From: an uncultured Lachnospiraceae bacterium
GTDB taxonomy: Bacteria > Bacillota > Clostridia > Lachnospirales > Lachnospiraceae
Reading direction: 5' to 3'
NCBI GenBank assembly: GCA_947566645.1
Contig: CANOKL010000018.1
Location: forward strand, 1-64,000
Length of the DNA: 64,000 bases
Part shown: one piece after another, positions 781-38,508 of the stretch
Position numbering within the stretch: position 1 is the first letter of the stretch
How the letters are laid out: each line of letters begins with the position of its first letter
Position numbers and translations under genes: made by a program
Notes under the pieces: model-generated
What the model was told of the DNA's origin: nothing
Database searches by the model: none
What the model saw: the letters and a program-made list of their open reading frames with translations, nothing else

Positions 781-786
781 TAATTG

Positions 787-3700
787 CTATTTGATTCTGA
801 TTGTTACTGTTGCTTTCTTGCCGCTGCCGTCTGTTGCCATTGCGGTGATCTTTACCTTTTTCTTTTTTCCAGCCTTGAGCGCTGTTACCTTGCCTTTGCT
901 GCTGACCTTTGCATATTTTGTATTACTGCTTGTCCATTTCAGCTTCTTATTGGCATTTTTCGTTGCGGTGACTTTTGCTTTTAGCTGCAGCTTCCTGCCT
1001 GCCTTGACGGATTTCTTTCCTGTAATGGTGACTTTCTTTACGACACCCTTCATGAATTTAATCTTGTAGGCTGCTTTTTTGCCGCTGCCGTCTGCTGCTG
1101 TTGCGGTGATGGTAACGGACCTGCCGCCTTTGCCAGACTTGATCTTTACAAGGCCTTTGCTGTCTACGGTTGCAAGCTTTGGATTGCTGGATTTCCAGAT
1201 TATGTTCTTATTTGTTGCATTGGAAGGAGATATTGCTGCTGTGAGCTGGATCTTCTTTCCTGCTGCAATATTTTTGGAAATTCCGGACAGCTTGATCTTT
1301 GTTACTTTTACAGGATTTTTAACTGTATTGTCGTCCTTGTTCGGCTCTCCCGTCTGTTTTGCCTGAATCTGGATCTCCTGTTCCTTGCTGTTTGTGAGGT
1401 TTACGGTAAATGCTGCTGTCTTTCCGTTGCTCTCGAAGTTTCCAACTACCTTCTTGTCAGCTATTACTTCGTATTTTCCTGCCGGAAGCTGCTTTAATGT
1501 AATCTCTGGAGAACAAGCCTTGCCTGTTACATTTTCAAGAGTCAGGGAGATGTTTTTCAGGTTATCTGAGATCTCTGCCTTCGTATATCTTGCCTTGCTC
1601 AGTTCTACTCCGAATTTGTCTTTGTTGTACATGGTTAACCGGGTTCTGACACCATCCTTTGGTGTGATGGTGTATTTGCCGCCTGCGTAGTTCATGTCAC
1701 ATCCATATCCGTACAATCCTACGATATCATCGTCCACAACATTGACAGATGCGGTCTTTAATCCGCCCCAGAATCCTAACGGTGACTCGCCTGACCATGC
1801 CCACCAGCCGTTCAGGTTTGGAATATAGTTGTAGTTGCTTGTTCCTTTTTCACTCTGATACTGCCATGCTGATGCACCATAGTTCTTCTCGTCAGCACTG
1901 ATCTGTCCGACATTGATGTTCGCCCAGCCTGCCAGATATGCGCCATATGTACCACGCATCATATCATCAAATTGTCCGCTAGATACATCTCCATAAGTGT
2001 ACAGGTAATCCTGCTGCTGCCATGCTCCAAGCTGTGTTTCATATCCTAAGTTCCACCAGGATTCACCCATGTGTCTGTTATCTGAACCGTAGTAATACCA
2101 GAGAGGCTGTATTCCTCTGCATGCCAGGGATGCCTTAGTTGTCTTTTCTACCAGATCCATGTTGTCAAGCATCTTTGCCAGAGTATAGCATGCTTCAAAT
2201 CCTGTCGTATCAATGCTCATCTCAGATGCAAACGGATATTCCTTTGCAAAGAGAGTGTATGCTTTTTTCTTTACCTTCTTCGTAAGCCAGATCTTTTCCT
2301 TGTTGTGTCCTTCGGTCTCCAGAGCTTTGAGGATTTCAGGCAGATTCATTTCTCCCATACTTCCAAAGACATAGGCTCCCTGTCCTCCGTTACCCCAGGC
2401 ATGTCCGTCAAACATACCGTATGTGAAATATGCTTTCAGTGTATTATAGCATCTTAACAGATACTCATCCGCCTTCAGATACTTAGTCATTTCCGGATAA
2501 CGCTTCGCAATCTGATACATATTGAAGTAGGTATTGGCTACATGTATATAGTTGTAAGAACGCCATGTTCCTTGATCTAACGGTGTGCCTTCCCCTCCGT
2601 CATACCAGCGGTGAACCTCATAGGTATCATTTTTCTGTAAATATCCCCAGATATAGTTCTGCAGATAGTACTCCAGAGATTCGATCTGATCCTGCTGCGG
2701 CGCGGAAATATTCTTTTCTGACAGATATACAGCCGGTGACAGTCCAAGATCGTCTGACCCTCCTGCCATCCATTCCTTCCATCCGCCTCCCGGGTAATCA
2801 TCCCAGGTGATGAGCTTTCCATTCTTCATATCCCACTGGAGATATGCGCCATTGTATCCTTTTTCTGTCTTTGCCTGCTGGTTTTTAACAATGAAGTCTG
2901 TGTTCGTCTGAATCAGTTTTTCGATCGGCTCTGTCGCATAGTACTGCAATACGCTCTCCTTACCTTCTCCATACTGAACCGTAACGTAATTCTCACCGAC
3001 ATTGCTAAATGTAAGCTCATAGATCTGATATCCATTGTTGTCGTTTTTCTTCTTAACTGCTACATTTTCTCCGGCTACACTCTTGATGCCTTCTTTGCTT
3101 CTGAGTGCAAGTGTTGCCTTCATATCCTTGGGAATTACCATTCCCGGCATGGAAACTGCATCTACAAGCCCGGCATTATATAAGATTTCCCGAAGCTCTG
3201 TGTAATTCGCTGCCCACTGGAAGGTGAATCCATAGGTCTTCTCTCCTCCTGCCTCTAATGCAAGTGAGGTTGCCGGAAGGTAAGCTCCCTCACGTCTCTT
3301 CTGGATCTCTGCAGAATGAATATAATACTCTACCAGACCCTCCCAGCCCGGGTCGCTCTCTGCAAATGGCCCTTCGCCGTATCTTGCCTTATCCTTGAAT
3401 TCCAGTGAGGTTCCGGCTTTAGGCACCATAACCAGGAAGGAGCCGTCACCGTTCGGCCTCTGCCAGTAGATGTAGGAACCGTCCTTTGCCACATAGGAAT
3501 GACGGGCTACATTCTGCTCATAGATTCCATCCTGTGTATTATTCCACCAGGAATTCATAAGAAGCGGTACGCCAAGATCTGCTATCTCCAGTCCTTCCTC
3601 AGAGGTATTCTTAATCTTGATCGTCCAGTCCAGCTGATCTCCGTTCTCACTCAGCTGATATACCTCCTGAAGAGAGAAATCCCTGATTCCGAACTGATTA

Positions 3701-5322
3701 TCCGCCGGCTGGTCATAGGAAACGATTACTGCATTGTCCTCTTTTGAAATATTTCTGGAATCATCGGACAGAGATGTATTCGCCGCATGATAACCTGTTT
3801 CGCTCTCCTTCTTTACATTGAAGAGCAAGTCTCCTACCCAGCGTGAATCATCCACATTAAACTGAGGCTTTAAGGACGGGTTCATCACATAGTTCGTGCC
3901 ATACTCATCCCCGGGATTCGATAACTGGAAGATACCGCCTGTGCCTTCATCAATGTCTACCTTGAACTTCTCAGATTCCAGCTTAAGGCTGATCTTTTGA
4001 TTCGACGCTATATCCATCTTCTCGAAGGATGCGGCTGCAACTCCTTTTGTTCCCCAGTCATTCACGATCAGTTCGATCGTATGCTTACCTGCCAGGCCTT
4101 CTGCAATGCTTCCGCTTCCAGGCATCAGTGTGTAATCCTCTGCATCTGACCCACGGTAAAATGCATCCACTTCATTTGTCTTACTGTCAAAGTCAATACG
4201 GAACCAGCCCTCTGTCCCATCATATGGCACAGTTTTATTTACGGCTGGCTGTCCTCCCTTAACAACAGTAAACCCGATAGTTCCTGCGCCGTTTCGTGAA
4301 AGCTCTGCAAAATCATCGCCTGAACCTTCCTTGGACAGCCTCATAATTGCAGTTCCATCGGAGTCTGCGGCAAACTCACTCCACTTTGCTTCTACCGAAA
4401 AGTCCTGGTCACCGGCATCTTTCTTGACTGTGGCAATCCCCTCTCCGGTACTTGTTAAGATAAGCTTTCCATTTCCTTCATACTTAACGTCTCCGGCTGT
4501 TCCATACCAGTCGTCTGTCAGTACAGGAGCGGTGAAATCTACAATCTCAGAATTCTTGTACTTTGCCTTTTTGGAAAATGTACTGTTAAACTGGTTAACT
4601 TTCACTGAGAAGGTCTGGGAACCGCCCCATTCCTCCATCCGTAATTCTGCTACGTGCTTCCCATTAAAACCAGCTAACTCCGTGCCACTGCCGTTCATGG
4701 GAACATAATCCGTCATATCCCCCGCCTTATACTCTGCTGTGACTGTCTGGGTATTGTTATCGTAACCGAGTCTGAACCAGCCTTCTTTCTCCTGAAAGCC
4801 GCCCTCTCCATTCTCTGATGCTAGTATAGTTGCATCGTAATACTTATCTGCTCCTGACTGTGCTATGCGGACACCAAGCCACCCATCTCTGAAACGCCGG
4901 ATCTCTACCCCGTTACTTCCTGTTCCATCATTTACCCCAAATACCATAAGGGAATTATCCTTATCATAGGGATTGTCATAATTACTCCAGTGAATCTCTG
5001 CGGTAAAGCTTCCGTTGTTTCCAATATTCCTTTTTACAGTAGTATACTGACCACCGCCTGCATCCTTAAGCGTGAGGCTGTTATCCGAGCATACAATACT
5101 GCCTTCGTCACCCGTCTGTAACCACTCGGCACTTAGCCCCCCCCCCTCAAAATTTTCCTCGACGGCTACATTCGTCTCTTTTACCACGCCTTTTGCCTGT
5201 GCACTCCCGCTGTCTGTTCCTTCCTCAGCTGCAGACACATTCTGCATGCCAGCCGGAAGACCTGAGCCCAGCATTGCTACACCAAGAAGCAGCGCGCATA
5301 ATTTCCTTCCTCTTTCTCTCAT
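787..5322 (-). CDS. Secreted multidomain DUF5695-like protein with Big_2 domains (1511 aa)
   Basis: The N terminus is a signal peptide (MRERGRKLCALLLGVAML..., likely cut after VSA near residue 31). Two related jelly-roll/concanavalin-like modules follow (about 50-250 and 258-440), each ending in a FNS/MDI strand. A large core (about 448-1290) has many Trp/Tyr/Asp motifs, among them YGTNYVMNP, DDSRWVGDLLF, WRSYNYIHVANTY and GFWGGLKTASVNVVDDD. I assign it to DUF5695 from memory of that family; its activity is not established to my knowledge, though the aromatic-rich helical blocks would fit an (alpha/alpha) glycan-active barrel. Two Big_2 Ig-like domains (about 1335-1511) end the protein. There is no LPXTG anchor, so it is released or held by the Ig modules. 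The paralogue upstream (5789-13060) has the same layout plus FIVAR repeats. It has its own promoter and a long leader. Confidence 0.85.
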   Translation of the reverse strand: MRERGRKLCALLLGVAMLGSGLPAGMQNVSAAEEGTDSGSAQAKGVVKETNVAVEENFEGGGLSAEWLQTGDEGSIVCSDNSLTLKDAGGGQYTTVKRNIGNNGSFTAEIHWSNYDNPYDKDNSLMVFGVNDGTGSNGVEIRRFRDGWLGVRIAQSGADKYYDATILASENGEGGFQEKEGWFRLGYDNNTQTVTAEYKAGDMTDYVPMNGSGTELAGFNGKHVAELRMEEWGGSQTFSVKVNQFNSTFSKKAKYKNSEIVDFTAPVLTDDWYGTAGDVKYEGNGKLILTSTGEGIATVKKDAGDQDFSVEAKWSEFAADSDGTAIMRLSKEGSGDDFAELSRNGAGTIGFTVVKGGQPAVNKTVPYDGTEGWFRIDFDSKTNEVDAFYRGSDAEDYTLMPGSGSIAEGLAGKHTIELIVNDWGTKGVAAASFEKMDIASNQKISLKLESEKFKVDIDEGTGGIFQLSNPGDEYGTNYVMNPSLKPQFNVDDSRWVGDLLFNVKKESETGYHAANTSLSDDSRNISKEDNAVIVSYDQPADNQFGIRDFSLQEVYQLSENGDQLDWTIKIKNTSEEGLEIADLGVPLLMNSWWNNTQDGIYEQNVARHSYVAKDGSYIYWQRPNGDGSFLVMVPKAGTSLEFKDKARYGEGPFAESDPGWEGLVEYYIHSAEIQKRREGAYLPATSLALEAGGEKTYGFTFQWAANYTELREILYNAGLVDAVSMPGMVIPKDMKATLALRSKEGIKSVAGENVAVKKKNDNNGYQIYELTFSNVGENYVTVQYGEGKESVLQYYATEPIEKLIQTNTDFIVKNQQAKTEKGYNGAYLQWDMKNGKLITWDDYPGGGWKEWMAGGSDDLGLSPAVYLSEKNISAPQQDQIESLEYYLQNYIWGYLQKNDTYEVHRWYDGGEGTPLDQGTWRSYNYIHVANTYFNMYQIAKRYPEMTKYLKADEYLLRCYNTLKAYFTYGMFDGHAWGNGGQGAYVFGSMGEMNLPEILKALETEGHNKEKIWLTKKVKKKAYTLFAKEYPFASEMSIDTTGFEACYTLAKMLDNMDLVEKTTKASLACRGIQPLWYYYGSDNRHMGESWWNLGYETQLGAWQQQDYLYTYGDVSSGQFDDMMRGTYGAYLAGWANINVGQISADEKNYGASAWQYQSEKGTSNYNYIPNLNGWWAWSGESPLGFWGGLKTASVNVVDDDIVGLYGYGCDMNYAGGKYTITPKDGVRTRLTMYNKDKFGVELSKARYTKAEISDNLKNISLTLENVTGKACSPEITLKQLPAGKYEVIADKKVVGNFESNGKTAAFTVNLTNSKEQEIQIQAKQTGEPNKDDNTVKNPVKVTKIKLSGISKNIAAGKKIQLTAAISPSNATNKNIIWKSSNPKLATVDSKGLVKIKSGKGGRSVTITATAADGSGKKAAYKIKFMKGVVKKVTITGKKSVKAGRKLQLKAKVTATKNANKKLKWTSSNTKYAKVSSKGKVTALKAGKKKKVKITAMATDGSGKKATVTIRIK

Positions 5323-5349
5323 AGTCTGTCTACCTTTCTTTTTACAACA

Positions 5350-5412
5350 TCACAATTGTTCCAGTTCCTTCCCAATCGGGCCTGTCCTTATACCTGCTAT
5401 TCCAACAGACAT
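5350..5412 (-). CDS. Possible 20-aa leader peptide
   Basis: ATG at 5412 opens MSVGIAGIRTGPIGKELEQL and stops at 5350, 27 bases before the start of the 1511-aa gene. It overlaps, in another frame, a 16-codon ORF that has the better ribosome site. Its own upstream site is poor. Translation would have to be coupled to the overlapping ORF. It may be chance; comparison of synonymous change in relatives would decide. Confidence 0.25.
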   Translation of the reverse strand: MSVGIAGIRTGPIGKELEQL

Positions 5413-5447
5413 ATCGATCTGCCCTTTTGGCAATATCTTACACTCAA
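5397..5447 (-). CDS. Possible 16-aa leader peptide with ideal Shine-Dalgarno
   Basis: TTG start at 5447, 7 bases after AGGAGG in the motif AGGAGGTGATC, which is a full-length complement of the 16S rRNA 3' end. It encodes MSVRYCQKGRSICLLE and stops at 5397. Such an extended ribosome site in a leader, about 75 bases before the true gene, suggests either a translated leader ORF or a 30S-binding leader. The peptide matches nothing I know. Confidence 0.35.
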   Translation of the reverse strand: MSVRYCQKGRSICLLE

Positions 5448-5569
5448 AAGATCACCTCCTGTTTTTTTAATCTATATTCACAAACAGTCTGAACCGGTAC
5501 ATCAGCAGAAGCCAGCTACCCACACAGGCTGTAATATGAATCCCATATAAACCCCATACTCCAAACAAG

Positions 5570-5596
5570 AATCCGCCAAATCAACTCTGGCGGATT
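5570..5596 (-). other. Inverted repeat in leader of the 1511-aa gene
   Basis: AATCCGCCA (5570-5578) and TGGCGGATT (5588-5596) form a 9-bp stem with a 9-base loop, downstream of the promoter at 5670-5705 and upstream of the leader ORFs. No U-run follows on the minus strand, so it is more likely an operator or a leader hairpin than a terminator. Confidence 0.5.
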
Positions 5597-5669
5597 TGCT
5601 ATACATTCCCCTTTTTTCAGTCTAAATGTAACTGCCTCCCCAGGTCACGTCACATTATGTTTTACGATT

Positions 5670-5739
5670 AGTATAAAAAATTCCTCTTTTCTTTTACACT
5701 CTAAATATTTAAACAGGGTGGAGATTCTTCAAATGAATT
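5670..5739 (-). promoter_or_regulatory. Promoter/regulatory block of the 1511-aa gene, shared with 18387-18456
   Basis: On the minus strand it reads TGAATT-mirrored sequence, TCCACCCTGTTTAA, TTTAGAGT and, 20 bases later, TTTATACT (-10 TATACT). The same elements with the same spacings (11, 20 and 25 bases) occur before the sugar-binding protein gene at 18332. There is no good -35 box, as expected for an activator-dependent promoter; YesN of this locus is the obvious candidate activator. This link is an inference. Confidence 0.65.
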
Positions 5740-5777
5740 GGGGACGGGGTATTTTTAAAAATACCCCGTCCCCAATT
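5736..5777. repeat. REP-like palindrome, copy 2
   Basis: A perfect 42-bp palindrome, identical to copy 1 apart from its outermost bases, 11 bases past the stop of the 2423-aa gene. It starts exactly where the homology between this intergenic region and the terminator at 18430-18467 breaks off, so it appears to have replaced or split the right arm of an older terminator. Confidence 0.85.
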
Positions 5778-5788
5778 GCTAGTTCACG

Positions 5789-8700
5789 CTATTTGATTTT
5801 GATTGTTACTGTTTTCTTCTTGCCGCTTCCGTCTGTTGCCATTGCGGTGATCTTAACCTTCCTGCCTTTTCCAGCTTTCAAGGCTGTTACCTTGCCCTTG
5901 CTGTTTACCTTGGCATACTTGGTATTACTGCTTGTCCATTTCACTTTCTTATTGGCATTTTTCGTTGCGGTGACTTTTGCTTTGAGCTGCAGCTTCTTGC
6001 CTGCCTTGATGGATTTCTTTCCTGAAATGGTGACTTTCTTTACGACACCCTTCATGAATTTAATCTTGTAGGTTGCTTTTTTGCCGCTGCCGTCTGCTGC
6101 TGTTGCGGTGATGGTAACGGACCTGCCGCCTTTGCCAGACTTGATCCTTACAAGGCCTTTGCTGTCTACAGTTGCAAGCTTTGGATTGCTGGATTTCCAG
6201 GTTACCTTCTTGTTTGTTGCATTGGAAGGTGAAATGACTGCTTTTAGCTGTATCTTCTTTCCTGATGCAATCTTTTTGGAAACTCCGGTGATCTTAATCT
6301 TTGATACCTTTACTGCTGCCTTCTTCAGAGCCTTTACTGCATTGTCCAGTGCATTTACCTGGGCATCGACTTCTGCCTGGGTTGCGTCCTCTTTATCCAG
6401 GACTGCTTTGGCTGCTGTCAGTGCCTTTGTAAGGGCTGCGTAGCTTTCTGCTGTATAACCGTCTGGTTTGATGGCTTTTGTATCGGTGTATTTTTTCTGA
6501 AGCCTGCTCTTATCTGCTGCTGACGGTTTTGCATCTGCCTTTTTCAGAGCCTTGATTGCGTCGTCCAGCGCCTGTGTCTGGGCGTGGACTTCTGACTGGG
6601 TTGCTGTCTCTTTATCCAGTACTGCTTTTGCCTCTGCCAGTGCCTTTGTAAGAACTGCATAGCTCTCTGCTGTATAGCCGTCTGGCTTGATGTCTTTTGC
6701 TTCATTATACCTGGCCCTTAATACGTCCTTATTAGCAGCTTTCCTTTCCAGTTTCTGAAGTGCCTCGCTGAGCCTGGTACTTGCATCGTTGATTTGCTGT
6801 TGTGTAGCATTCGGATTTTCGGAAACTTCCTTTACCGCATTCAGCGCATCCTGCATTGCTGCCCAGCTTTCTGCTGTATAGTCTTCTTCTTTTACTTCAT
6901 TCGCATAGTTGATGATTGTATTGAGTCCTGACTTATTTGCTCCTTCCAGTGCGATCATGGCATCTCTGAGCGCTTTTGTTGCGGCATCCACGTCCGTCTG
7001 CGCTGCCTTTTCATCAGCCAGTACTTTGCTGGCATTATCAAGTGCTTTCTCCAGATCTTCCCATGAATCCTTTGTATAAACGTTCTTATCGAATGCCTTT
7101 GTACGTTCAATTGCGACCTTCAGCTCATCTTTATCGATGGTTGTCTTCGCCTGCAGCTGCCGGATACACTCGCTGAGCTGATACGTTGCAGCATCAATAT
7201 CCTTCTGTGTAATCGTATCATCTTCTCCACTGGCTATTTTCTGTATGATCTCTTCGGCTGCCTGACGCTCAGCAACCATCTTATCCCACGCATCTGCTTT
7301 ATCTTCATAGTCCTCTTTGTTTAGTCCATTTGCTCTTTCTATCGCTGCATTCAATCCATAAGTATCAATGCTTACCAGATCTCTCAGTGCCTTTCTGAGC
7401 GCGACCGTTACCTCAATAACCTCCTGCTGTGTTGCTGCGTTTTCCAGGGCTCTCTGATACACATCCTTTGCGTTCTGACGTGCTTCCACCAGTTCTGCCC
7501 AGCTTGATGCTCTGTAATTGTCCTTCTGGCTGTCCAGTCCTTCTGCACGCTTGATCGCCACGCCTAGTCCTGTCACATTGATTGTGTCCGGATCCAGGTC
7601 AAAGACTGCAGCATATAGCTTACGGGTCGCTTCGTCTATATCTGCCTGTGCAGGATCTTTCTCAGCCATCATCTGATCTGCATCACTAAGTGCAGCGTCC
7701 AAAGCAGCCAATCCATCCTGGTTATCTGCGTATGGAGTTCTATCTAATTCCGTGGCATAAGCTATGGCTTCCCTCAGCCCTGTTCTGTCAATATAATTCG
7801 CCTCTAACTCATCAAGTGCTGTTCTAAGTGCCAGCGTTGCAGCAGTAACCTCTTCCTTGGAGACCGCTGTGTCTTCCTGTACCTTTTTTGCTTCGTCATA
7901 CGCCTTCTGCATTTCGGCCCAGATTGTTGCCGGGTAATTGTCTTCCTTATCAAGAAGCTTTTCTGCCCGTTCAATCACAGTGCCTAATGCAACCTTTGTG
8001 ACGCTTGTTCTCTCTTCTAACCCCCGGATTGCTTTCCAAAGCTCATATGTATGGTTATCAACCACATCCTGGCTGGCATCTAGATCAGCCGCCACTACTT
8101 TTGCTGCATCCAGCGCGTCCAAAAGAGACTTCCAACTCTTCGCAGTATAAACCTCTTCGTTTTTCTCATCTTCTGCACGCTTAATAGCTGCGTTCAGCCC
8201 TGTTTTGTCAAGAGGTACTAACTTATTTAATGCGTCTCTGAGATCATCTCTTGCTTTGTCCACTTCCGCCAGCTCTGCATCTTCTTTTTCCCTGATTTTC
8301 TTAGCAGCATCAAGCTTCTCCTGCATTGCAGCCCAGCTTGTTGCTGTATGGAAACTTTGATCCTTAGCCATTGCATCTTCAATTGCTTTTTGTAATGCAA
8401 GGCTGTCTCCATGTTCTTTCACAATCCTTCTATCTTCCAGAACATCAAGAGAATCTTTAAGCTTCTCTGTCGCAGCGTCTACCTCACTCTTCCCGGCCTT
8501 TGGATTAGCGGCTATTTTTTCTGCTTCATCAAGTGCATCGGACATGGCCTTCCAAGTCTTGGGCAGCCCTAAGTCTTGATAAAGCTGTTCCTTTTCTTTC
8601 TCCAGCTTTGCTCTCGCAATTTGGCTATTCAGAGTCTCTCTGTCTCCTGTCCCGATCAGCTGGCCCGCTGCGTTCTCTAAATCCTGCTTCGCTTTTACAA

Positions 8701-11700
8701 CTGCCGCCTGGGATGTATCTTTGTCATCAAGGTCAAGTACTGCTTTGGCTTTGGTCAACGCTTCGTGAAATACTTCCCATGTTTTGGCAGTATAGTCTGC
8801 CTGCGTCTTCTTACTGTGTTCTGTATATGAAGCCATTAATGCCTGCAGGTCATCCGTCTTTGCAACTTCTGCCAATCCTTCTACTGCTTTTGTCAGATCC
8901 TGCTCTGCTTTCTCAACCTCTTCATATGTTGATTCTGCCTTGCCAAGAATAGTTTCTGCTGCTTTCAGCGCTGTATCAAATGCACCCCAGCTCGTTGTGG
9001 TATAGTCTGTCTCATTCTTATCCTTGTTGTCATTGTACAGATTCTGCAAGCCAGTCTTAATTACCTCAGTAGTAATGAGGACTTCCTTATTTGCAGCCAC
9101 TTTGTCAAAGTCAATCTTAGCAACTGCAGTCGCAGTCTTGTCTTCCCTTTCGACTGTTCCAACTACTTTTCCGTCAGATGATACTGCTCTATAGTTTCCT
9201 TCCGGAAGGTTATTCAGTGTAATCTCCGGTGAAACACCTTCTACCATATCCAGTGTAAGCTTGATTTTACTCAGATCGTCTGCAATCTCGGCTTTCTTAT
9301 ATCTTGCCTTATCAATTGCTATGCCAAAGTTACCCTCATTATACATCGTAAGCCTTGTCCTAACTCCATCCTTTGGTGTAATAGAGTAAATGCCATTTTC
9401 ATGAGTTAGATCGCATCCGTATCCATATAAGCCAACAATGTCATCATCCACAATATTCACGGATGCTGTCTTCAGGCCTCCCCAGAATCCAAGGGATGCT
9501 TCGCCTGACCATGCCCACCAGCCGTCAAGGCTTGGAACATATGCATAGCCATTTGTTCCCTTCTCACTCTGGTACTGCCAGGATGCTGCTCCATAGTTTG
9601 CCGCATCATCACTAATCTGTCCCACATTGATATTCGCCCAGCCTGCCAGATATGCTCCGTATGTACCGCGCATAATATCATCAAAATCTTCATCGGAAGC
9701 TTTCCTATAATTATACAGGTAATCCTGCTGCTGCCATGCTCCAAGCTGCGTCTCGTATCCTAAGTTCCACCAGGATTCGCCCATGTGCCTGTTATCTGAA
9801 CCATAGAAATACCACAATGGCTGCATACCCCTGCATGCCAGGGATGCCTTTGTCGTCTTCTCTACTAGTGCATTATTTCCATACATTTTTGCAAGTGTAT
9901 AACATGCCTCAAATCCTGTCGTATCAATACTCATCTCAGATGCAAACGGGTATGCTGTAGCAAACAGATAGTTGTCCGCTTTGTCCTTAATCTTCGCCGA
10001 CAAATCAGCATGCTCATCCTTGTGTCCCTCTGCTTCCAGTGCCTTCAGAACCTCCGGCAGATTCATCTCGCCCATATTTCCAAACTTATAAGCTCCCTTT
10101 CCGCCGTTTTCATAATTATGCCCATCAAACATGCCATAGGTAAAGTATGCCTTTAGTGTATTGTAGCATCTTAACAGATATTGATCTGCCTTCAGGTACT
10201 TTGTCATCTCTGGATAGCGCTTTGCAATCTGATACATATTATAGTAGGTATTGGCAATATGCACATAATTGTAAGACCTCCATGTTCCCTGGTCGCTTGG
10301 GGTTCCCTCTTTCCCATCATACCAGCGGTAAACTTTATACGTATCATGCTGCTGCATATAACCCCAGATGAAATTCTCCAGATAGTATTCCAGGGATTTA
10401 ATCTGGTCTTCATCCGGTGCAGTGATATTTTTCTCTGAGAGATATACTGCCGGAGACAGTCCCAGATCATCTGACCCACCTGCCATCCATTGCTTCCAGC
10501 TCCAGATATTAGACTGCGGATAATCATGCCAGGTAATAAGCTTTTTATTCTTCATATCCCACTGCAGATATGCGCCATTATATCCATAATTTACCTTTGC
10601 CTGCTGTTTCTTCACCAGAAAATCCGTATTCGCATTAATCAACTCTTCTACCGGCTTGGTTGAATAATACTGCATTACACTCTTCTTGTTATTGCCGTAA
10701 TTAATTGTAACATAATTTACACCCAGGTTTGAGAATGAAACCTCATAAAGATCGTAACCATTCTTTGTACCCTTCCCGGTAACATTAACTCCTTCTCCTT
10801 CTACACTCTTAATTCCATCCTTGCTTCTTGCGGCAATCGTTGCTTTCATGTCATTCGGAATCACCATGCCAGGCAGGGACACAATATCCACAAGACCGGC
10901 ATTATATAAAATATCCCTAAGATCAGCATAACTTGACGCCCACTGGAAGGTAAAGCCATATGTCTTGCTCTGATCCTTTGCTAATGTAAGAGATGTTGCA
11001 TCAAGGTAAGCATTTGGACGCGTCTTTGACTTTTCAGCAGAGTGGATATAATACTCCACAAGTCCTTCCCATTGCGGATCCTTCTCCGCAAATGGTCCTT
11101 CGTTAAATCTTGCTTTGTCCTTGAATTCCAGTGATGTCCCATCCTGCGGAGTCATCACCAGGAAGGAACCGTCACCATTTGGTCTCTGCCAGTAGATGTA
11201 GGAACCATCCTTTGCAACATAAGAATGACGCGCAACATTCTGCTCATAGATTCCGTCCTGTGTCGTATTCCACCAGGAATTCATCAGAAGCGGAATTCCC
11301 AGGTCTGCTATTGTCAGCTCCTCATTAGATGTATTATCTACCTTGATTGTCCAACTCAGCTGATCCCCTGCTTCATTCAGCTGATATTTTTCCTCCAATA
11401 CAAAATCTTTGATCCCATACTGATGACTCGATGATCCGTTATAAGAAACTGTAATTGCATTACCTTTCTTTACCACATTTCTGGTATCGTCAGACAATGA
11501 GGTATTAGCTGCATGATACTTCGTGTCAGTTTTCTTCTTAACATTGAACACCAGATCACCTACCCAGCGTGAATCATCAATATCAAACGCTGAGTGTATA
11601 TCCGGATTCATCACATAGTTCGTACCATACCCATCTTTAGGATCTGTTAACTGATAGATACCTCCGGTGGTTTCGTCTATATCTATTAGGAAATTCTCAG

Positions 11701-13060: not shown

Positions 13061-13091
13061 AATACGTTTCCTTTCTTATTTCATTTCACGC

Positions 13092-15023: not shown

Positions 15024-15079
15024 GATGTTTTTTATATCCTTTCTCACTTTAACAGGTAAAACCGTCCTTTTTATATTAC

Positions 15080-15140: not shown

Positions 15141-15217
15141 ATGAGTTCCACGTCCCTGGGACATAGATTTTGTAAATACGCAGGCCAGACTTGGACTGTT
15201 ACGCTATTTTCTCTTCC

Positions 15218-16048
15218 TTATGCCTTCACTGCACCGTTCGTCAGACCGCTGACAATATACTTCTGCATGAAGATAAAGATCAGCACTACCGGCATGATGG
15301 CAACAATACCAAATGCCATGGTTGCATTCCACAGGGTCTGATACTGCTGTACGTAATTGTAGATACTGGAGGTAATGGGCCGCATATTTGGATCCGTGAT
15401 AAATGTAATACCATAGATCAGGTCGCCCCACGCATATACGAAGGAGAATACTGCAGCTACTACAACTCCGGGCTTTGCGATCGGAAGCATGACTTTGGTA
15501 AATGAGGTAATGCTGTTACATCCGTCTATCATCGCCGCCTCGTCCAGTTCCTTCGGGATGGACAGGAAGTAGGTTCTCAGTATAATAATACTGAACGGAA
15601 TTCCAAGTGTTGCATCTGCCAGAATCGGCGCAATATAGGAATTCAGCAGTCCCATACTCGAGAACATGATATACAGGGATGTCAGAATCAGTGTGGACGG
15701 AAGCATCTGTGTCATAAGGAAATATAAGATCAGAATCTTCCGGCCATTGAATTTGAATCTTGCAAGTCCATAAGCTGCCGGGATCGCAAGAAGGGTTGAT
15801 ATAACCGTAGCCCCGCTGGCGATGATTACACTGTTTTTAAATCCCCGGAGGGTATCACTGGATGCGGAAAGCTGGTCGGCGAATGCATCAAAGGTCAGAT
15901 TCTTCGGCCACAGCGGCGTGGGGATCTGGAAGATCTCTACCTGGGTCTTCAGCGCTGTAACAACCATCCAGTACAACGGGAAGATAAAGATTACGAATAC
16001 AAGTGCTCCTACAATAAAAAATTTCCAGTTGCCTTTTTTGTTATCCAT
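15218..16048 (-). CDS. Carbohydrate ABC transporter permease (MalG/CUT1 type)
   Basis: 276 aa with about six membrane helices. The inner-membrane EAA loop reads ELDEAAMIDGCNSITSFTKV...PIAKPG, typical of the second CUT1 permease. It pairs with the permease encoded just upstream (TAG, one base, then ATG), with AGAGGTGATG as ribosome site inside the end of that gene. It forms the channel for the sugar delivered by the lipoprotein at 17058-18332. No ATPase gene is in the operon, so a shared MsmX/UgpC-type ATPase encoded elsewhere is expected. Confidence 0.93.
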   Translation of the reverse strand: MDNKKGNWKFFIVGALVFVIFIFPLYWMVVTALKTQVEIFQIPTPLWPKNLTFDAFADQLSASSDTLRGFKNSVIIASGATVISTLLAIPAAYGLARFKFNGRKILILYFLMTQMLPSTLILTSLYIMFSSMGLLNSYIAPILADATLGIPFSIIILRTYFLSIPKELDEAAMIDGCNSITSFTKVMLPIAKPGVVVAAVFSFVYAWGDLIYGITFITDPNMRPITSSIYNYVQQYQTLWNATMAFGIVAIMPVVLIFIFMQKYIVSGLTNGAVKA

Positions 16049-16049
16049 C

Positions 16050-16955
16050 CTACATCACCTCTTCTTCATCATTGATCAGTTTAATATAGAAAATACCTAC
16101 TACAAACAGAATCAAAAACAGTATATTTGCCGCTGCTGCACCCTTGCTGAACTGGAACTGTTCGAAGGACAGCTTATATGCATATGTAGATACCAGCTCT
16201 GTTGCGTTAATCGGTCCTCCCTTTGTCATAACCCATACAAGGTCGAACACCTTAAATGTATAAACAAATCCTAATGTCAGCACTGACATGATCGCAGGGC
16301 GGATCATCGGAATTGTAATCTGGAACAGTGTCTGGATCTTATTTGCCCCATCCAGTCTTGAGCTTTCGTAAATCTCTTCTGGTATCGTCGTAAGTCCTGT
16401 AATCAGGAGCATCATATTAAAAGGAATACCGATCCAGATATTTGCAACAATGATCGCCGCCATGGCAAGCTTCGGATCAAGCAGCCACTCAAGAGGTGCA
16501 TCAATCAGATGCAGTGACATAAACAGCTGGTTGATAATACCTCCCTTGCTTGCAAACATGAACTTGAACAGTAAGCCTGCTACCGTAACCGGGAGCAGCC
16601 AGGAGATCATCGTAACGCCCCGGAAGAAAGAACTTCCCTTGAACTTTTTGTTAAACAGAAGGGCAAGGCCAAAACCAATAAAGAACTGGAAGAATATGGA
16701 TACAACCGTAAAGATCAGTGTATTGATAATGGCGGTTGACAGGATTGCGTCCTTACCTGAAAATAGCTCTGTGTAATTGCTGAATCCGACAAACGACTGT
16801 TTCGCTGTGTCTGAGAACGTGTATACATCTACATTTTTAAAGCTCAGGATAAAGTTCTGTATCATCGGGTATCCGACAAATACCAGCATATAGATGGCTG
16901 CCGGGAGCGCGAAGATCAGGCCGGCTCTCATGCTCATATTTTTTGTTTTCTTCAT
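16050..16955 (-). CDS. Carbohydrate ABC transporter permease (MalF/UgpA type)
   Basis: 301 aa, six predicted membrane helices, EAA loop EIYESSRLDGANKIQTLFQI...PMIRPA. AAAGGATG lies 7 bases before the ATG. It is the first permease of the importer operon, separated from the binding-protein gene by a hairpin at 17005-17037. Substrate is inferred only from context (GH127 and the secreted DUF5695-like proteins). Confidence 0.93.
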   Translation of the reverse strand: MKKTKNMSMRAGLIFALPAAIYMLVFVGYPMIQNFILSFKNVDVYTFSDTAKQSFVGFSNYTELFSGKDAILSTAIINTLIFTVVSIFFQFFIGFGLALLFNKKFKGSSFFRGVTMISWLLPVTVAGLLFKFMFASKGGIINQLFMSLHLIDAPLEWLLDPKLAMAAIIVANIWIGIPFNMMLLITGLTTIPEEIYESSRLDGANKIQTLFQITIPMIRPAIMSVLTLGFVYTFKVFDLVWVMTKGGPINATELVSTYAYKLSFEQFQFSKGAAAANILFLILFVVGIFYIKLINDEEEVM

Positions 16956-17004
16956 CTCATTCCATCCTTTCTAATTGTCCTGCGGGATTATAATTCCCTG
17001 TATG

Positions 17005-17037
17005 ATAAAAGGGACAGGGTGCGCCTGTCCCTTTTAT
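17005..17037 (-). terminator. Intercistronic hairpin after the sugar-binding protein gene
   Basis: ATAAAAGGGACAGG (17005-17018) and CCTGTCCCTTTTAT (17024-17037) form a 14-bp stem with A-rich and U-rich flanks. It sits 20 bases after the stop of the binding-protein gene and before the permease genes. Such hairpins usually act as partial terminators or 3' protectors that keep binding protein in excess over permeases. Confidence 0.8.
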
Positions 17038-17057
17038 GTAATTGATCTATGGTATTT

Positions 17058-18332
17058 TTATTTCTCGCCCGCTTTTACCTTATCCACTGCTGCCTGTGTA
17101 TCCTCGGCTGCCTTCTCCGGCGTCTTCGCAGAGGTCATAACCTCCTGGAAGCCTGTCTGAATGGCATCTGAGTATGCCGGCCATGATGCGCTCGGTCCTC
17201 TCGGGATAGAGGTTTCAAGCTGCTGGATAAATGCCTTCTGAATCGGGTCATCTGTCCAGTAGGGATCCTGTGCCGCTTCTGTCTTCGGCGGGAAGGAACC
17301 ATACTGCTTCATGCACTCTACCATAACTTCTGGCTGATCATAGTACTCCATGAATGCGATTGCGCCGTCCATGTTGTCCTTCTTTACTGCACCCATGTTC
17401 TCGCCGCCAAGGATTGAGGTAGCCTGTCCGGAATCCGCATCCTTCTTCGGAAGAACTGTTACGCCATAGTCCAGATCCGGAGCATCTTTTTCGATTCCGG
17501 GAATCTGCCATGGTCCGTTCTGCTGCATAGCCAGATTTCCTGCAACGAAGTTGTTATTTGCATCTGACTGTGTCCAGTTCACACAATCCTTGGACCAGGA
17601 GCCTTCTGCAACCATCTCCTGCATCAGATTATAAGCATCTGTCCCGCCGCCGATATTCTGATAGTCGCCGCCTGCTGTGTATAACCACTGCAGACACTGG
17701 AATGTACCCTCATCTGTACCTGTTGCAGCATTTCCAAATCCTGTTACGCCGTCTTTTGTCAGCGCTTTTGCCATCTCGCGGAAGTCTTCCCATGTCGTAT
17801 TCTCATCCGGATAAGCCATCTTTGCATCATCAAAGATCTTCTTGTTGTAGAACAGTGCTGTACAGTTTGTTGCAAACGGAATGCCGTAGTGCTTGCCATC
17901 TGCCATTGTGGAGGACATTGGTCCTTCCATGTACTCGTCCCACTTGATGTTCGCGTCAGATACATCGCCGAACAGGTCCATCTCAATGAAGGAAGCCATG
18001 CCACAGCCGTCCAGGATTACCAGATCCGGCAGTTCTCCGGAAGCCATGCCGAGTGTCAGCTGCTTCTCATAATCCGCAAATGGTACATACACATGTGATG
18101 CCTCGTATTTGTCCTGTGACTCATTGAACCCGTCAATCATGTCCTGCATCATGTTCTTCTGGGCATCTGTCTCAAAGTAATCCCAGATTACAACGGATTC
18201 CTTCCCGCCTGAGGCTTCCTGCTTGTCCCCGCCTGTGGAACCTCCGGAGCTGTTTCCTCCGCCGCTGCATCCTGTCATCAGGCCGGCTGCAACAGTCAGG
18301 CATAATAGTGCGCTTACAATTCTTTTTTTCAT
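17058..18332 (-). CDS. Sugar-binding lipoprotein of the ABC importer (family 1 SBP)
   Basis: 424 aa. Lipoprotein signal MKKRIVSALLCLTVAAG then lipobox LMTGC (Cys22) and a Gly/Ser linker. The body is a type 1 extracellular solute-binding fold (VVIWDYFETDAQKNMMQDM..., VIWD, NGPWQIPG, LGGENMGAV). It would capture the oligosaccharide at the outer face of the membrane and hand it to the two permeases downstream. AAAGGTAGGGAG precedes the ATG. It shares its promoter block with the 1511-aa secreted protein. Its closest relative in the window is the lipoprotein at 18472-19710. Confidence 0.93.
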   Translation of the reverse strand: MKKRIVSALLCLTVAAGLMTGCSGGGNSSGGSTGGDKQEASGGKESVVIWDYFETDAQKNMMQDMIDGFNESQDKYEASHVYVPFADYEKQLTLGMASGELPDLVILDGCGMASFIEMDLFGDVSDANIKWDEYMEGPMSSTMADGKHYGIPFATNCTALFYNKKIFDDAKMAYPDENTTWEDFREMAKALTKDGVTGFGNAATGTDEGTFQCLQWLYTAGGDYQNIGGGTDAYNLMQEMVAEGSWSKDCVNWTQSDANNNFVAGNLAMQQNGPWQIPGIEKDAPDLDYGVTVLPKKDADSGQATSILGGENMGAVKKDNMDGAIAFMEYYDQPEVMVECMKQYGSFPPKTEAAQDPYWTDDPIQKAFIQQLETSIPRGPSASWPAYSDAIQTGFQEVMTSAKTPEKAAEDTQAAVDKVKAGEK

Positions 18333-18386
18333 AATCTCCCTACCTTTCCTGAATCGCTTTTTTGCGTTTCTTCATTTGTTGAATTC

Positions 18387-18456
18387 AGTATAAATAATTA
18401 TCATTCTGCTTTGTACTCTAAAAAATTAAACAGGGTGGAAATTCTTTAACTGAATT
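18387..18456 (-). promoter_or_regulatory. Promoter/regulatory block of the importer operon
   Basis: On the minus strand: CCACCCTGTTTAA (18426-18438 region), TTTAGAGT (18415-18422) and TTTATACT (18387-18394, -10 TATACT). Element spacings match those at 5670-5739 base for base. A weak -35 (TACAAA) 17 bases before TATACT suggests need for an activator, most simply YesN. The block overlaps the terminator of the upstream gene. Confidence 0.65.
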
Positions 18457-18467
18457 ATCCACCCTGT
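18430..18467 (-). terminator. Rho-independent terminator after the yesMN-linked lipoprotein gene
   Basis: ACAGGGTGGA (18430-18439) and TCCACCCTGT (18458-18467) form a 10-bp stem; on the minus strand TTTAATTTTTT follows. It separates the sensor-kinase operon from the importer operon. Confidence 0.75.
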
Positions 18468-18471
18468 CCTG

Positions 18472-19710
18472 TCACGGCTGATTGTCCCTGGACATATTCT
18501 TTTTGATCTCTCTGCACACCCGCTTTGGGGTACTCTCCCCTGTGATGACCTGATACTGTGCGGATGACAGAAGGCCGGACAGCTCCGACCAATCCATTAT
18601 ACTTGTTCTGGAGATGCAGTTTTCCATCTGCTCCATCACCACCTTATACCGGGGCTTTGCCGCCAGAAATAGCTGTGCCGCATCTTTTCTTGGCGGAAGG
18701 GAATTTGCCCGCAGGTTGGCATTCAGCATGATATCCGCCTGGCTGTAATATCGCAGGAAGGCGGTGCTGCCCTCTACATTTTTTCCCTTGATCACGGCAA
18801 TATCCTCTCCGCCAAGCAGCCCCTGGGAACGTTCTCCTGCAGGAAAAGCAGCAATTCCATAGTTAATTCCTGATTCATCCAGTGCCGGAAATACCCACGG
18901 CCCGTTCTCCATCATGGCACAGCTCCCGTCAATAAATATACGCGCCACATCGTTCTGGGACCAGTTCACGCATTCCCTGGACATCCATCCCTGATCCACA
19001 AGGTTTTGGATAAAACGGAATGCCCTGAGCGTTCCCCTTCCTCCGGCCTCTTCAAGGTCATCTCCTGCCGACAGCATGAAAGTTCCAAGTTGGAAGACCC
19101 CCTGCTCTCCGTCAATCGCAGACATAGCGAATCCATATTTTCCCGAACCGGTAAGCTTTTCTGCCGCGCTCTGAAGCTCCTCCCATGTCCGGGGTACGCT
19201 TAACCCCTCTTCTGCCAGCATATCCTTGTTGTAGATCAGTACAATATTATTGCAGCAGAATGGCAGGCCATAATATCTCCCGTCATATTCCACGGACTTC
19301 ATAGCCTCTGGAAAATATTCATCCAACCCCTCCAGTCCTGATACGGCTTCTGTAATATCTTCCAGCTTATCCATCCTTACATAAGAGGGCATATCCGGAT
19401 TATCCAAGATCACCATATCCGGAAGCTGGTTCTGTGTAATGCCGATGGCAAGCTTCTTGTTAAACTCTGTAACCGGTCCATGGTATTCCCAGGTCAGATG
19501 GTACTCCCCCTGGGACTCATTGAAGCCCTCCACCAGCTCTTCCATGGAAAGCTTCTGCATCTCCGTCTCATAATAAGTCCACAGCACCAGCTCTTCCCTG
19601 TTCTCTGTCTTTTGCCCCACGTCTCTGCTTCTTACGGATACGCATCCCTGCAGGATCAGCGCTCCCAGAAGCAGCATGCAGACCAGGCTTCTCTTCATAC
19701 ATTTCCTCAT
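18472..19710 (-). CDS. Solute-binding-protein-like lipoprotein encoded with YesM/YesN
   Basis: 412 aa, signal MRKCMKRSLVCMLLLGAL with lipobox LILQGC, then a family 1 solute-binding fold clearly related to the importer's binding protein (LVLWTYYETEMQKLSMEEL, ENGPWVFPAL, LLGGEDIAVIKG). AGGAGAAGCTT precedes the ATG. It lies 43 bases after yesN and before a terminator, so it is transcribed with the two-component genes and not with the permeases. It could deliver sugar to the importer, but its position fits better a periplasmic-side co-sensor for YesM, as known for some Firmicute three-component sugar sensors. That role is inferred. Confidence 0.88.
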   Translation of the reverse strand: MRKCMKRSLVCMLLLGALILQGCVSVRSRDVGQKTENREELVLWTYYETEMQKLSMEELVEGFNESQGEYHLTWEYHGPVTEFNKKLAIGITQNQLPDMVILDNPDMPSYVRMDKLEDITEAVSGLEGLDEYFPEAMKSVEYDGRYYGLPFCCNNIVLIYNKDMLAEEGLSVPRTWEELQSAAEKLTGSGKYGFAMSAIDGEQGVFQLGTFMLSAGDDLEEAGGRGTLRAFRFIQNLVDQGWMSRECVNWSQNDVARIFIDGSCAMMENGPWVFPALDESGINYGIAAFPAGERSQGLLGGEDIAVIKGKNVEGSTAFLRYYSQADIMLNANLRANSLPPRKDAAQLFLAAKPRYKVVMEQMENCISRTSIMDWSELSGLLSSAQYQVITGESTPKRVCREIKKNMSRDNQP

Positions 19711-19753
19711 AAGCTTCTCCTGTTATCGAATCACTGCTGAATCGTTACTCCTT

Positions 19754-21277
19754 TTATTTCATCTGCCTGTATTCTCCCGGCGACACACCGATCTCTTCTT
19801 TGAATACTCTCTGAAAATACTTCGGGTCACTGTACCCTACTGCAGCTGCAATCTCGTACACTCTCAGATCTGTTCCTTTGAGAAGACGCTTCGCGTGACT
19901 CATGCGGAACTGCTTCAGGAACACCGAAAAATTAATTCCCATCTCCCGGTTGAAGAGAGTGCTCAGATACTCTGGCGTGATCTCAAGAACAGAAGCCACC
20001 TCCTCCTGGGTAAGCCCCTCCTGATAGTGCTCCCTGATGTAATTGATAGCGCGCTTGATCACATAATTACTGATGTCCTCACGTTTTGCCCGGGTATCTG
20101 TAATGGTCTGAATGACATCCTGGTATGCCTGCCAGAGCTCATGCCAGGTCACCGCTGTCTCTATATTGCGCAGCAGATTCCTGTTTTTCAGATGCTGGTA
20201 CATGGAGCTGTCAATTTCCTGCAGCGTATCCCCAATGAGATGGTAGCACTTGACAAATGCCTTCCTGATCTCTATATTATCAAAATGTCCCTCTGACATA
20301 TAGGTCAGAAAGGCATCCGCTTCTTTCCGGAGCTTTGAGCTGTCATCCGAACAGATGGCACTGCGGATCCGGTTATAGATGTGAACAGGAGCCTGAAATT
20401 CCTGCGGACAGTACCGGCCCACCTGTTCTTCATCCAGCCATCCTTCTGGCTTTAATACCAGCGCATAGGTAAGAAGCCCGTCTAACTCCTTTACTGTCTG
20501 CCTGATCTGCCCCGGACAGGTGAATCTCTTCCTGGTCCAGATCGCACGCTCTGCCTTGTTCTGGTATCTTAAGAGCAGTCTGTTGTAAACCGATCTCTCC
20601 AGGGCCGGCAGTCTTTCTCCTCCCTTTTCCCCATATCCCAGAAGGTATCCTTTCTGCAGATTCTCCACATAGACATAGAAGATCTTAAGGTCTTCATATT
20701 TTTTCTTCAATTCCTCTGCAAAGCGTTCAGTTTCCTCCCTGTAAGCAGGCTCGGCCGAGCCGACATAGCCTGCAAAGAGTTCGTAGTCTCCCTCTTCTGG
20801 AAATCCGCATATATCCTTCAGAATACCGCAGTTCTTATCCGCTCCCTTCTCATCTCCCATAATCAGATTCTTAAGATGGTGCTCCGGGGTTCCGCTTGTA
20901 AGCTGCTCTTTTCTGATCTTTCCCTCTACTTTCGCCAGCATGTCTCTGACATCATCAATGGACAGCGGCTTTAGGATGTAGTCATCCACGCCATAATGGA
21001 TTGCCTTCTGTGCATATTCGAATTCTGAATATCCGCTTAAGATGACCACATGCACCGGAATCTTCCGTTCATGGAGCTCCTTCACCATCTCAAGCCCGTC
21101 CATCCTGGGCATCCTGATATCCGTAATCACAAGATCCGGCTTAAACCTCAGAATCATCTCCAGTCCTTCCCTGCCGTCCACAGCCTCTCCCTGAACAACA
21201 TGACCTGTCTGGGATTCAATCAGCTTTGCCATGCCTTCCCTGATCTTAACCTCATCCTCCACAATTACGATTCTCAT
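19754..21277 (-). CDS. Response regulator, YesN/AraC type
   Basis: 507 aa. N-terminal receiver domain (MRIVIVEDEVKIREGM, phospho-acceptor Asp53 in LVITDIRMPRMDG, Lys in DDYILKPL), a middle region without a named fold, and a C-terminal pair of AraC helix-turn-helix motifs (about 405-507; LTQEEVASVLEITPEYLSTLF and the closing YFQRVFKEEIGVSPGEYR). It overlaps the kinase gene by 4 bases (ATGA), so the pair is translationally coupled. It probably activates the importer operon and the 1511-aa gene through their shared promoter block. Confidence 0.95.
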   Translation of the reverse strand: MRIVIVEDEVKIREGMAKLIESQTGHVVQGEAVDGREGLEMILRFKPDLVITDIRMPRMDGLEMVKELHERKIPVHVVILSGYSEFEYAQKAIHYGVDDYILKPLSIDDVRDMLAKVEGKIRKEQLTSGTPEHHLKNLIMGDEKGADKNCGILKDICGFPEEGDYELFAGYVGSAEPAYREETERFAEELKKKYEDLKIFYVYVENLQKGYLLGYGEKGGERLPALERSVYNRLLLRYQNKAERAIWTRKRFTCPGQIRQTVKELDGLLTYALVLKPEGWLDEEQVGRYCPQEFQAPVHIYNRIRSAICSDDSSKLRKEADAFLTYMSEGHFDNIEIRKAFVKCYHLIGDTLQEIDSSMYQHLKNRNLLRNIETAVTWHELWQAYQDVIQTITDTRAKREDISNYVIKRAINYIREHYQEGLTQEEVASVLEITPEYLSTLFNREMGINFSVFLKQFRMSHAKRLLKGTDLRVYEIAAAVGYSDPKYFQRVFKEEIGVSPGEYRQMK

Positions 21278-23097
21278 CTGATCGTTTCTCCTTTCCTCAC
21301 AGCCGGCATCTTAAGTGTAATCACGCTTCCCACTCCTTCAATACTATTTACATTCCAGGACGCCCTGTCCCCGTAATACATCCTCATCCTGGAAAATGCA
21401 TTGGGAAGGCCGATACTGGTTCCTTCCTCCTGCCACCTGGCAGACGGGTCATTATATTTAGCGGCAATCTCTCTGGGGATTCCTTTTCCGTTATCTTCAA
21501 TGATAATGGAAAGTTCCTCCTGATTCTCGGAAAGCAGGATATCTACCCGGAGAATTCCCCCATGTTTTATCTCCCGGAAGCCGTGCATGATTGCATTTTC
21601 GATAAAGGGCTGGAGTAACAGCTTGTAGATCCAGAGCCTTCCTGCTTCTGGCTGTACATGAATCTCACACAGAAAGGAATCATTAAATCTCATACGCTGC
21701 AGGCTTACATATTTTTCCAGCCAGTCTGCCATCTCATTCACAGTCGCCATCTTATTACTCTTGTCCACACTATAGCGGAGGATTACTCCGAGATTTCTCA
21801 CCATCCGGCTGATCTCATATTCCTCCTTCTCAATTGCCATCCAGTTAATGGAATCCAGTGTATTATATAAAAAATGAGGATTAATCTGTGCTTCCAGAGC
21901 GCGGATCTCCGCTTCCTTTTGTTTAACCGTTACCTCCTTGACCTCTTCAATCAGCCCCTTTACCTTTCCTGTCATGGTATTAAAATTATCTGCGATCTGC
22001 CCCATCTCATCCTTGCTGTCCACCGTCACCTGCACATCCAGATTTCCCCGCTGGATCTCCGTAATCCCTGCTACAATACTCTTCGTGGATTTCTCAATCA
22101 GCGATACTGTATAGAAAATCAAAAATACTGCGGCCAAAAGCAGCAAAGCACCTATGGCGAGTGTCAGATACTGGATTGACCTGACCTCCCGCAAAACATA
22201 ATTTTCATCATAAGCATTATAAAAGTACCATCCCAGGTTCTGGTTCTCATACTGGTTAATGGCAATGGTCCTGCCCTCCAGTATTCCCGTCCTCTCTACA
22301 AACTCTTCCACTGTCCGGTCCTCGGACAACGAGATACCGGAATAAAAGGAATTCGGATAGGACAGAATCGTCCCGTCCTTATCCGTAATAAAATTAATGG
22401 TATAGACCTCCTCATTCTCCCGGGCTGTGCTGCATACTGCGTTGAGGACGGATTCATTGACGCTCATAATCACAGTACCGATTGCACCCTTTCTGATATC
22501 CTTAAAGTCATACATCTGCTTGGAGATATGGAAAATCCGCTCTTCCCCTCCCTCACGCTTGATGCGTTCTGTCGGAGAGATCACCATATTAGAGCCCTCC
22601 TCCTGTGCCAGCCTGCAGGGTCCGATATCCGTTTTGTCCTGGTAGACACTCCACAGATTATCGACTGCTGATGCCATCCCGAAATCATAGGTAATGTCCT
22701 GTCCGCCTGTCAGCACAATACTAATGCATTCAATTCCGCCTGTCATACTTCCATACTGCTGCAGGCGGCCGCAGATCTCTCTGTATGTACGTGCTCTTGT
22801 CTCTGGCTGTGCGTTCTCGTAACTGTCTATGCCTTTGATAATCTCATTATCTGAGTAGATCTGATATACCAGATTCGTATAGACATCCAGCGCCAGGTCC
22901 GTCCGTTCTGATATCTGGGCAAGCTGGATCTGCATGAGGTCATCCACCTTTTCTCTCATATTATTAGAAATTACATAAAGCATCAGCACCTGTGCCACCA
23001 GAAGAGGAATAATGGAGGTCACAGCAAATGTGTACATGATTTTCTTTCCTAATTTCTGGTTTCTGAACCAGTGCAGGAATCCCTTTTCGGCCTTCAT
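21274..23097 (-). CDS. Sensor histidine kinase, YesM type
   Basis: 607 aa from the ATG at 23097, chosen because GGAGGAAG lies 7 bases upstream; a TTG 15 bases earlier would place this site inside the gene. One membrane helix near the N terminus (about 20-45), a large extracellular sensor region, a second helix near 290-315, HAMP (about 315-370), then a His_kinase domain with the phospho-accepting His in EAQINPHFLYNTLDSINWMA and an ATPase domain ending in IIEDNGKGIP and SIGLPNAFSRM. Such kinases sense extracellular carbohydrates. It is the first gene of the regulatory operon. Confidence 0.95.
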   Translation of the reverse strand: MKAEKGFLHWFRNQKLGKKIMYTFAVTSIIPLLVAQVLMLYVISNNMREKVDDLMQIQLAQISERTDLALDVYTNLVYQIYSDNEIIKGIDSYENAQPETRARTYREICGRLQQYGSMTGGIECISIVLTGGQDITYDFGMASAVDNLWSVYQDKTDIGPCRLAQEEGSNMVISPTERIKREGGEERIFHISKQMYDFKDIRKGAIGTVIMSVNESVLNAVCSTARENEEVYTINFITDKDGTILSYPNSFYSGISLSEDRTVEEFVERTGILEGRTIAINQYENQNLGWYFYNAYDENYVLREVRSIQYLTLAIGALLLLAAVFLIFYTVSLIEKSTKSIVAGITEIQRGNLDVQVTVDSKDEMGQIADNFNTMTGKVKGLIEEVKEVTVKQKEAEIRALEAQINPHFLYNTLDSINWMAIEKEEYEISRMVRNLGVILRYSVDKSNKMATVNEMADWLEKYVSLQRMRFNDSFLCEIHVQPEAGRLWIYKLLLQPFIENAIMHGFREIKHGGILRVDILLSENQEELSIIIEDNGKGIPREIAAKYNDPSARWQEEGTSIGLPNAFSRMRMYYGDRASWNVNSIEGVGSVITLKMPAVRKGETIR

Positions 23098-23129
23098 ATG
23101 TACTTCCTCCAAAAAATCTTTGTTCTTCT

Positions 23130-38505: not shown

Positions 38506-38508
38506 GCC

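Follow-up and report, generated by a model that had tools for sequence, protein, structure and literature searches.

A nine-gene locus in an uncultured Lachnospiraceae bacterium could encode an inducible system for scavenging the beta-L-arabinofuranose-bearing glycans of plant hydroxyproline-rich glycoproteins or arabinogalactan proteins, using a putative PL27-superfamily core, an importer and an intracellular GH127 enzyme; we hold this reading with about even confidence. In the proposed mechanism, a YesMN-type pair would sense the substrate, and two secreted DUF5695 proteins would cleave the glycan extracellularly through a PL27-superfamily catalytic core predicted to combine a beta-sandwich with an alpha/alpha barrel, with beta-elimination (lyase) chemistry as the most probable mode. 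The product would be imported by the two permeases together with both lipoproteins; inside the cell, the cysteine glycosidase GH127 would take off beta-L-arabinofuranose, and the freed arabinose could be used by the host through AraA. This proposal builds on gene content, fold, PL27 homology, common residues, the GH127 active site and a recurrent gene association. We infer the lyase chemistry, the substrate and the direction of flow, and all statements about activity draw on fold, residues and neighbors.

Organization and boundaries of the locus

The window, by which we mean the whole 64,000-nucleotide stretch of DNA analyzed here, carries the locus on its minus strand. A sequence-only reading of this DNA had described nine genes running in one direction, and all nine open reading frames are present at their positions. 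The regulatory genes encode a YesM-type sensor histidine kinase with dCache, HAMP and His_kinase domains (21274..23112; PF06580, E 2e-24) and a YesN-type response regulator with an AraC HTH (19754..21277; Response_reg, E 8e-28; HTH_18, E 6e-22). The importer comprises two SBP_bac_8 solute-binding lipoproteins, lipoprotein 1 at 17058..18332 (PF13416, E 9e-38; GC lipobox visible) and lipoprotein 2 at 18472..19710 (PF13416, E 2e-39), which is 33% identical to the first, and two BPD_transp_1 permeases at 16050..16955 (PF00528, E 5e-17) and 15218..16048 (PF00528, E 6e-19). The first matches of the importer's solute-binding proteins were maltose/galactose-type binders, with no special kinship to a known arabinobiose-binding protein.

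Beyond the gene for the GH127 beta-L-arabinofuranosidase (13092..15023; PF07944, E 3e-107) lie those for two giant secreted proteins. The 2423-residue protein (5789..13060) has an N-terminal half like that of its paralogue, a core (window 9071-11743), 12 FIVAR stretches (E 3.6e-60) and two Big_2 domains. The 1511-residue protein (787..5322) has a hydrophobic N-terminus and consists of a signal peptide, two unnamed N-terminal modules, a predicted PL27-fold core (window 1303-4005) and two Big_2 domains. An Rfam search found no RNA element, and a terminator scan between the two giants gave one 11-pair stem at 5596-5570, overall not above chance. A palindromic repeat of ~40 bp occurs at window 738-775, 5738-5779 and 38500-38552, downstream of both giants and elsewhere, and is also found in the genome of a congener, G002.

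Comparison of the window with L112 by blastn showed that a segment with approximate limits 92..23301 is missing from the equivalent site of G002. The DNA beyond 23302, including a gene for an M24 peptidase, is collinear with G002 at ~95%, and the G002 counterpart of window 14-91 (83%) sits 112 bp from the M24 gene. The locus is therefore a discrete unit, either gained in the host or lost in G002. We rejected the M24 peptidase (23299-24426, just upstream) as a member of the system: the gene is kept in G002 and in a further genome, G001, both of which lack the locus, and its presence in G001 without any DUF5695 gene shows that it is not part of the system. A partial gene at the contig start (window 1-430), which on visual inspection looks like a PDDEXK/Rpn-type nuclease or a transposase, also has a remnant at the G002 site. 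Elsewhere in the host genome, contig C11 carries a second pair of giant DUF5695 proteins of 2387 and about 2943 residues (L019 10522-17685 and L020 1-8556), with solute-binding proteins of its own and a GH65 gene nearby.

The DUF5695 core is predicted to be a PL27-superfamily enzyme

From the letters alone, the two giants had been called DUF5695-like and were said to share a core, and the profile searches agree. Both score above the curated cut-off of PF18951 (25.2 bits) over most of the 857-position model, our definition of membership, with 234 and 225 bits (E 4e-69 for the 1511-residue protein and 2.7e-66 for its paralogue). Between the giants, identity is 63% across about 1370 residues and 73% in the core. 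Across 43 diverse homologous cores, 25 positions are invariant, including H169, R482, E552, E595, D599 and E604.

We examined two independent structure models, one of the window core, which belongs to class A of the family (AlphaFold 2; pLDDT 89, pTM 0.91), and one of an intracellular class C protein 26% identical to it (AlphaFold; pLDDT 87). In Foldseek searches, both matched 5NO8, the PL27 protein BACCELL_00875 (5NO8/5NOK), along its whole length, with all other structures far behind: the window core at E 8.8e-31 and TM 0.81 over the target (runner-up E 1e-9, TM 0.2), and the class C protein at E 1.1e-26 and TM 0.79. The N-terminal beta-sandwich and (alpha/alpha)6 barrel that define the PL27 fold, as described in PMC8377490, are both present in the core model. 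A profile of the 43 cores likewise had 5NO8 as its sole strong match among solved proteins (E 9.7e-27), and a profile of the barrel by itself also put 5NO8 first (E 8e-4). In the alignment, core residues N133, H169, R183, R482, E595 and D599, all invariant or almost invariant in the 43 cores, correspond to N131, H166, R180, R447, E537 and E541 of 5NO8 (numbered as in the deposited sequence); the first five are identical and D599 is replaced by glutamate. Because fold and profile match 5NO8 over the full length and the H, R, R, E and D/E residues are held in common, we classify the DUF5695 core, on predicted structure and homology, as a PL27-superfamily enzyme. BACCELL_00875 is a lyase; by beta-elimination adjacent to glucuronate, it releases rhamnose from gum arabic (PMC8377490). 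The core, which shares 16% identity with this enzyme, is probably also a lyase; pieces of 5NO8 match PF18951 below its cut-off, and DUF5695 may already stand in CAZy near PL27. The host genome's one weak match to an alginate-lyase-like family lies elsewhere and is irrelevant here.

The sequence-only reading had proposed that the core is the extracellular enzyme that releases the oligosaccharide and takes the place of GH121. That it is an extracellular enzyme is almost surely right, given the enzymatic fold (the core aligns to PL27 and not to a non-enzymatic fold), the invariant residues and the co-occurrence with GH127 described below; oligosaccharide release is something that we continue to infer. 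A relation to GH121 itself was not supported: nothing links the core over its full length to GH121 or to any other glycoside hydrolase family. We rejected kinship with GH121: only the FIVAR tail matches the model of HypBA2, and no HypBA2 structure is among the best 50 Foldseek matches of either model.

GH121's job could still be done on another scaffold, and it is possible, if unlikely, that the core is a glycoside hydrolase of PL27 fold that releases beta-L-arabino-oligosaccharides from hydroxyproline-linked chains. The SBP-permease-permease-GH127-DUF5695 order of the window and of L024 (Blautia parvula NBRC 113351) is that of the Bifidobacterium longum HypBA cluster, where GH121 occupies the slot held here by DUF5695 (SBP-TM-TM-GH127-GH121; PMC7263609). 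The conserved acids E552, E595, D599, E604 and E740 would suit a hydrolase, and most alpha/alpha-barrel matches other than PL27 are to hydrolases or phosphorylases. Against this, the only full-length relative in structure and sequence is a lyase, and H169, R183 and R482 are conserved in addition to the acids.

The locus GH127 has a complete HypBA1-type active site

The GH127 gene probably starts at ATG 15023 (AGAAAGGA upstream), giving a protein of 643 residues; the mechanical open reading frame reaches 15164. From this start the protein has no signal peptide, and it is thus predicted to be intracellular. Its closest solved relative is PDB 4QJY (E 5e-206). A complete catalytic Cys/Glu set had been claimed for it, and alignment bears this out: E361, E377, C379, C457 and C458 correspond to HypBA1 E322, E338, C340, C417 and C418, and the sugar-binding residues H181, Y184, H233 and R312 to HypBA1 H142, Y145, H194 and R273. 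The protein thus has the Cys nucleophile, Glu-Cys3 zinc site, acid/base Glu and His/Tyr/His/Arg binding set of the family. Across the surveyed loci, every complete GH127 copy of this type (cluster 4) keeps the HypBA1 residue set; copies of a second type (cluster 7) differ in their binding set and resemble GH146. An HypBA1-type GH127 points to beta-L-arabinofuranose as the target sugar, a component of hydroxyproline-rich glycoproteins, arabinogalactan proteins and certain pectins (PMC7263609, PMC10850190).

DUF5695 genes recur beside GH127 in several phyla

A genome-wide scan identified 79 further DUF5695 loci in Bacillota, Bifidobacteriaceae, Verrucomicrobiota and Fibrobacterota. The family is uncommon, being present in 4 of 98 genomes with the host counted, and the loci fall into three classes: class A proteins are window-like and mostly secreted; class B proteins are giant and secreted, and occur in Paenibacillus and Lachnospiraceae; class C proteins have about 870 residues, with no signal peptide in Clostridia and secreted in Verrucomicrobiota. 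These classes bear on whether the giants are instead substrate-binding or display proteins that have lost catalysis and only tether the cell to plant glycoproteins. Their FIVAR and Big_2 repeats, extra N-terminal modules and arrangement as two adjacent paralogues would fit such a role, which we nevertheless regard as very improbable: the polar set is invariant in 43 of 43 homologues, among them class C enzymes that are small, intracellular and devoid of binding modules.

Co-occurrence of DUF5695 with GH127, on which the sequence-only reading also depended, is borne out. GH127 is present in 39 of the 79 loci, in several phyla, compared with 1.7 expected, given the 222 GH127 genes that 39 carrier genomes (194.6 Mb) contain. 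By class, the counts are 5/9 (A), 16/45 (B) and 18/25 (C); several loci are short contigs, so that absence of GH127 there means little. The association requires at least 8 changes on the tree and therefore does not reflect a single inherited arrangement, even if some of the loci are closely related. The grouping exceeds chance, with the same genes recurring together in other phyla. An apparent DUF5695-GH127 fusion in L084 is an artefact, its frames being joined only across runs of N, and two open reading frame clusters without Pfam matches (15 and 16) were discarded because, in GC-rich loci, they are for the most part antisense shadows of permease and GH127 genes. In Verrucomicrobiota (L032, L033, L034), the genes flanking DUF5695 encode a DUF6055-LamG protein and a GH127/146-like protein.

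Substrate and sugar use

The host genome encodes AraA, and RhaA was not found in it (the genome is 92% complete). Neither GH88 nor GH105 appears among the 25 of 96 families listed for class A and C neighbors, and the host has one GH88/105-type gene, away from the locus, although cleavage by a lyase would produce unsaturated uronides. The presence of AraA without RhaA and the missing GH88/105 partner would also suit the hydrolase considered above. With no unsaturated-uronide hydrolase seen nearby and a host without RhaA, the classic rhamnose-glucuronate activity is doubtful.

That activity is central to a further alternative, in which DUF5695 is a plain PL27 L-rhamnose-alpha-1,4-D-glucuronate lyase that strips rhamnose caps off arabinogalactan side chains, and GH127 works separately on the same glycan. 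The fold and residue match to BACCELL_00875 argues for it. The GH127 enzyme BT3674 acts on larch arabinogalactan, according to a passage of PMC10850190 that cites the work, and RhaA is found in 28 of 38 carrier genomes. We nonetheless consider this quite unlikely: RhaA is missing from the host and from 10 of the 38 carriers, the identity is low, no unsaturated-uronide hydrolase is among the listed neighbor families, and the importer and GH127 would be left without a linked enzyme making their substrate.

Overall, AraA and RhaA patterns over the 38 genomes single out no one sugar. Five class C genomes with GH127 have no AraA, so that arabinose explains only part of the picture in them. Bifidobacterium aesculapii, the only tested marmoset bifidobacterium that grows on gum arabic and larch arabinogalactan (PMC8406136), carries a class A DUF5695 protein (L027); other gum genes are present too. 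PL27, for its part, is active on gum arabic (PMC8377490).

A fourth family and a possible import-first route

In 11 loci, mostly of Paenibacillus beside class B DUF5695, we found an 811-residue protein without Pfam matches (alignment A6, e.g. L054:2435-4909). Its homology to DUF5695/PL27 extends from end to end: the alignment to the core spans 707 columns (hhalign probability 99.5, E 1.4e-22), and the H, R, R, E and D positions are conserved. By homology we assign it as a fourth family of the DUF5695/PL27 group.

Aminopeptidase P cleaves X-Pro bonds. In nine class C loci (L058, L071, L073, L074, L078, L082, L086, L087 and L095), the operon includes an M24 peptidase gene, placed downstream of either DUF5695 or GH127; of four copies scanned, three are of the aminopeptidase P type and one of the Creatinase_N type. 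By our count over 16 genomes, 11 of 19 AMP_N copies have a PF07944 gene no more than 10 kb away, some of them away from DUF5695. In several genomes, AMP_N genes are found near GH127/GH146-like genes outside DUF5695 loci. For class C only, an imported proline or hydroxyproline glycopeptide is thus a natural interpretation; in the window itself, the link to aminopeptidase P is missing. We tentatively suggest, as a view that is more doubtful than our reading of the locus, that DUF5695, the 811-residue family and PL27 form a lyase-like superfamily for hydroxyproline-linked plant glycans, and that Gram-positives use it by two routes: surface giants (classes A and B), or import first, with DUF5695, GH127/GH146 and aminopeptidase P inside the cell (class C). 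In the searched literature we found no description of such a coupling of deglycosylation to proline-peptide cleavage.

Comparison with known systems

The system had been called undescribed, which holds insofar as we found no account of DUF5695 function in the searched literature. Our analysis gives DUF5695, a domain of unknown function in several phyla, a testable function. If the proposal is correct, DUF5695 supplies the missing extracellular step of beta-L-arabinofuranose use in Gram-positives without GH121, and there is a hint that gut and rumen Clostridia process plant cell-wall glycoproteins by a whole-glycopeptide route.

PL27 lyases, exemplified by BACCELL_00875, share with DUF5695 the whole fold, the domain order, the residues equivalent to H166, R180, R447 and E537, and a plant arabinogalactan context. 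They differ from it in that, apart from the sequence divergence, the DUF5695 model has an additional C-terminal beta-rich domain, and in that DUF5695 adjoins GH127 and an ABC importer in Gram-positives, with no unsaturated-uronide hydrolase seen alongside. The locus GH127 is an ordinary member of its family: it is 45% identical to HypBA1 over 438 aligned residues, has all nine catalytic, zinc and binding residues, and differs in nothing notable from HypBA1 or the Geobacillus enzyme 4QJY. The B. longum HypBA system consists of a solute-binding protein, two permeases, HypBA1 (GH127), HypBA2 (GH121) and HypAA (GH43). Both systems have the same gene order up to GH127, an HypBA1-type GH127 with a full active site and an adjacent giant FIVAR surface protein; in contrast to the B. 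longum system, the window locus has no GH43 and carries DUF5695 for GH121, two solute-binding proteins and YesMN-type regulation.
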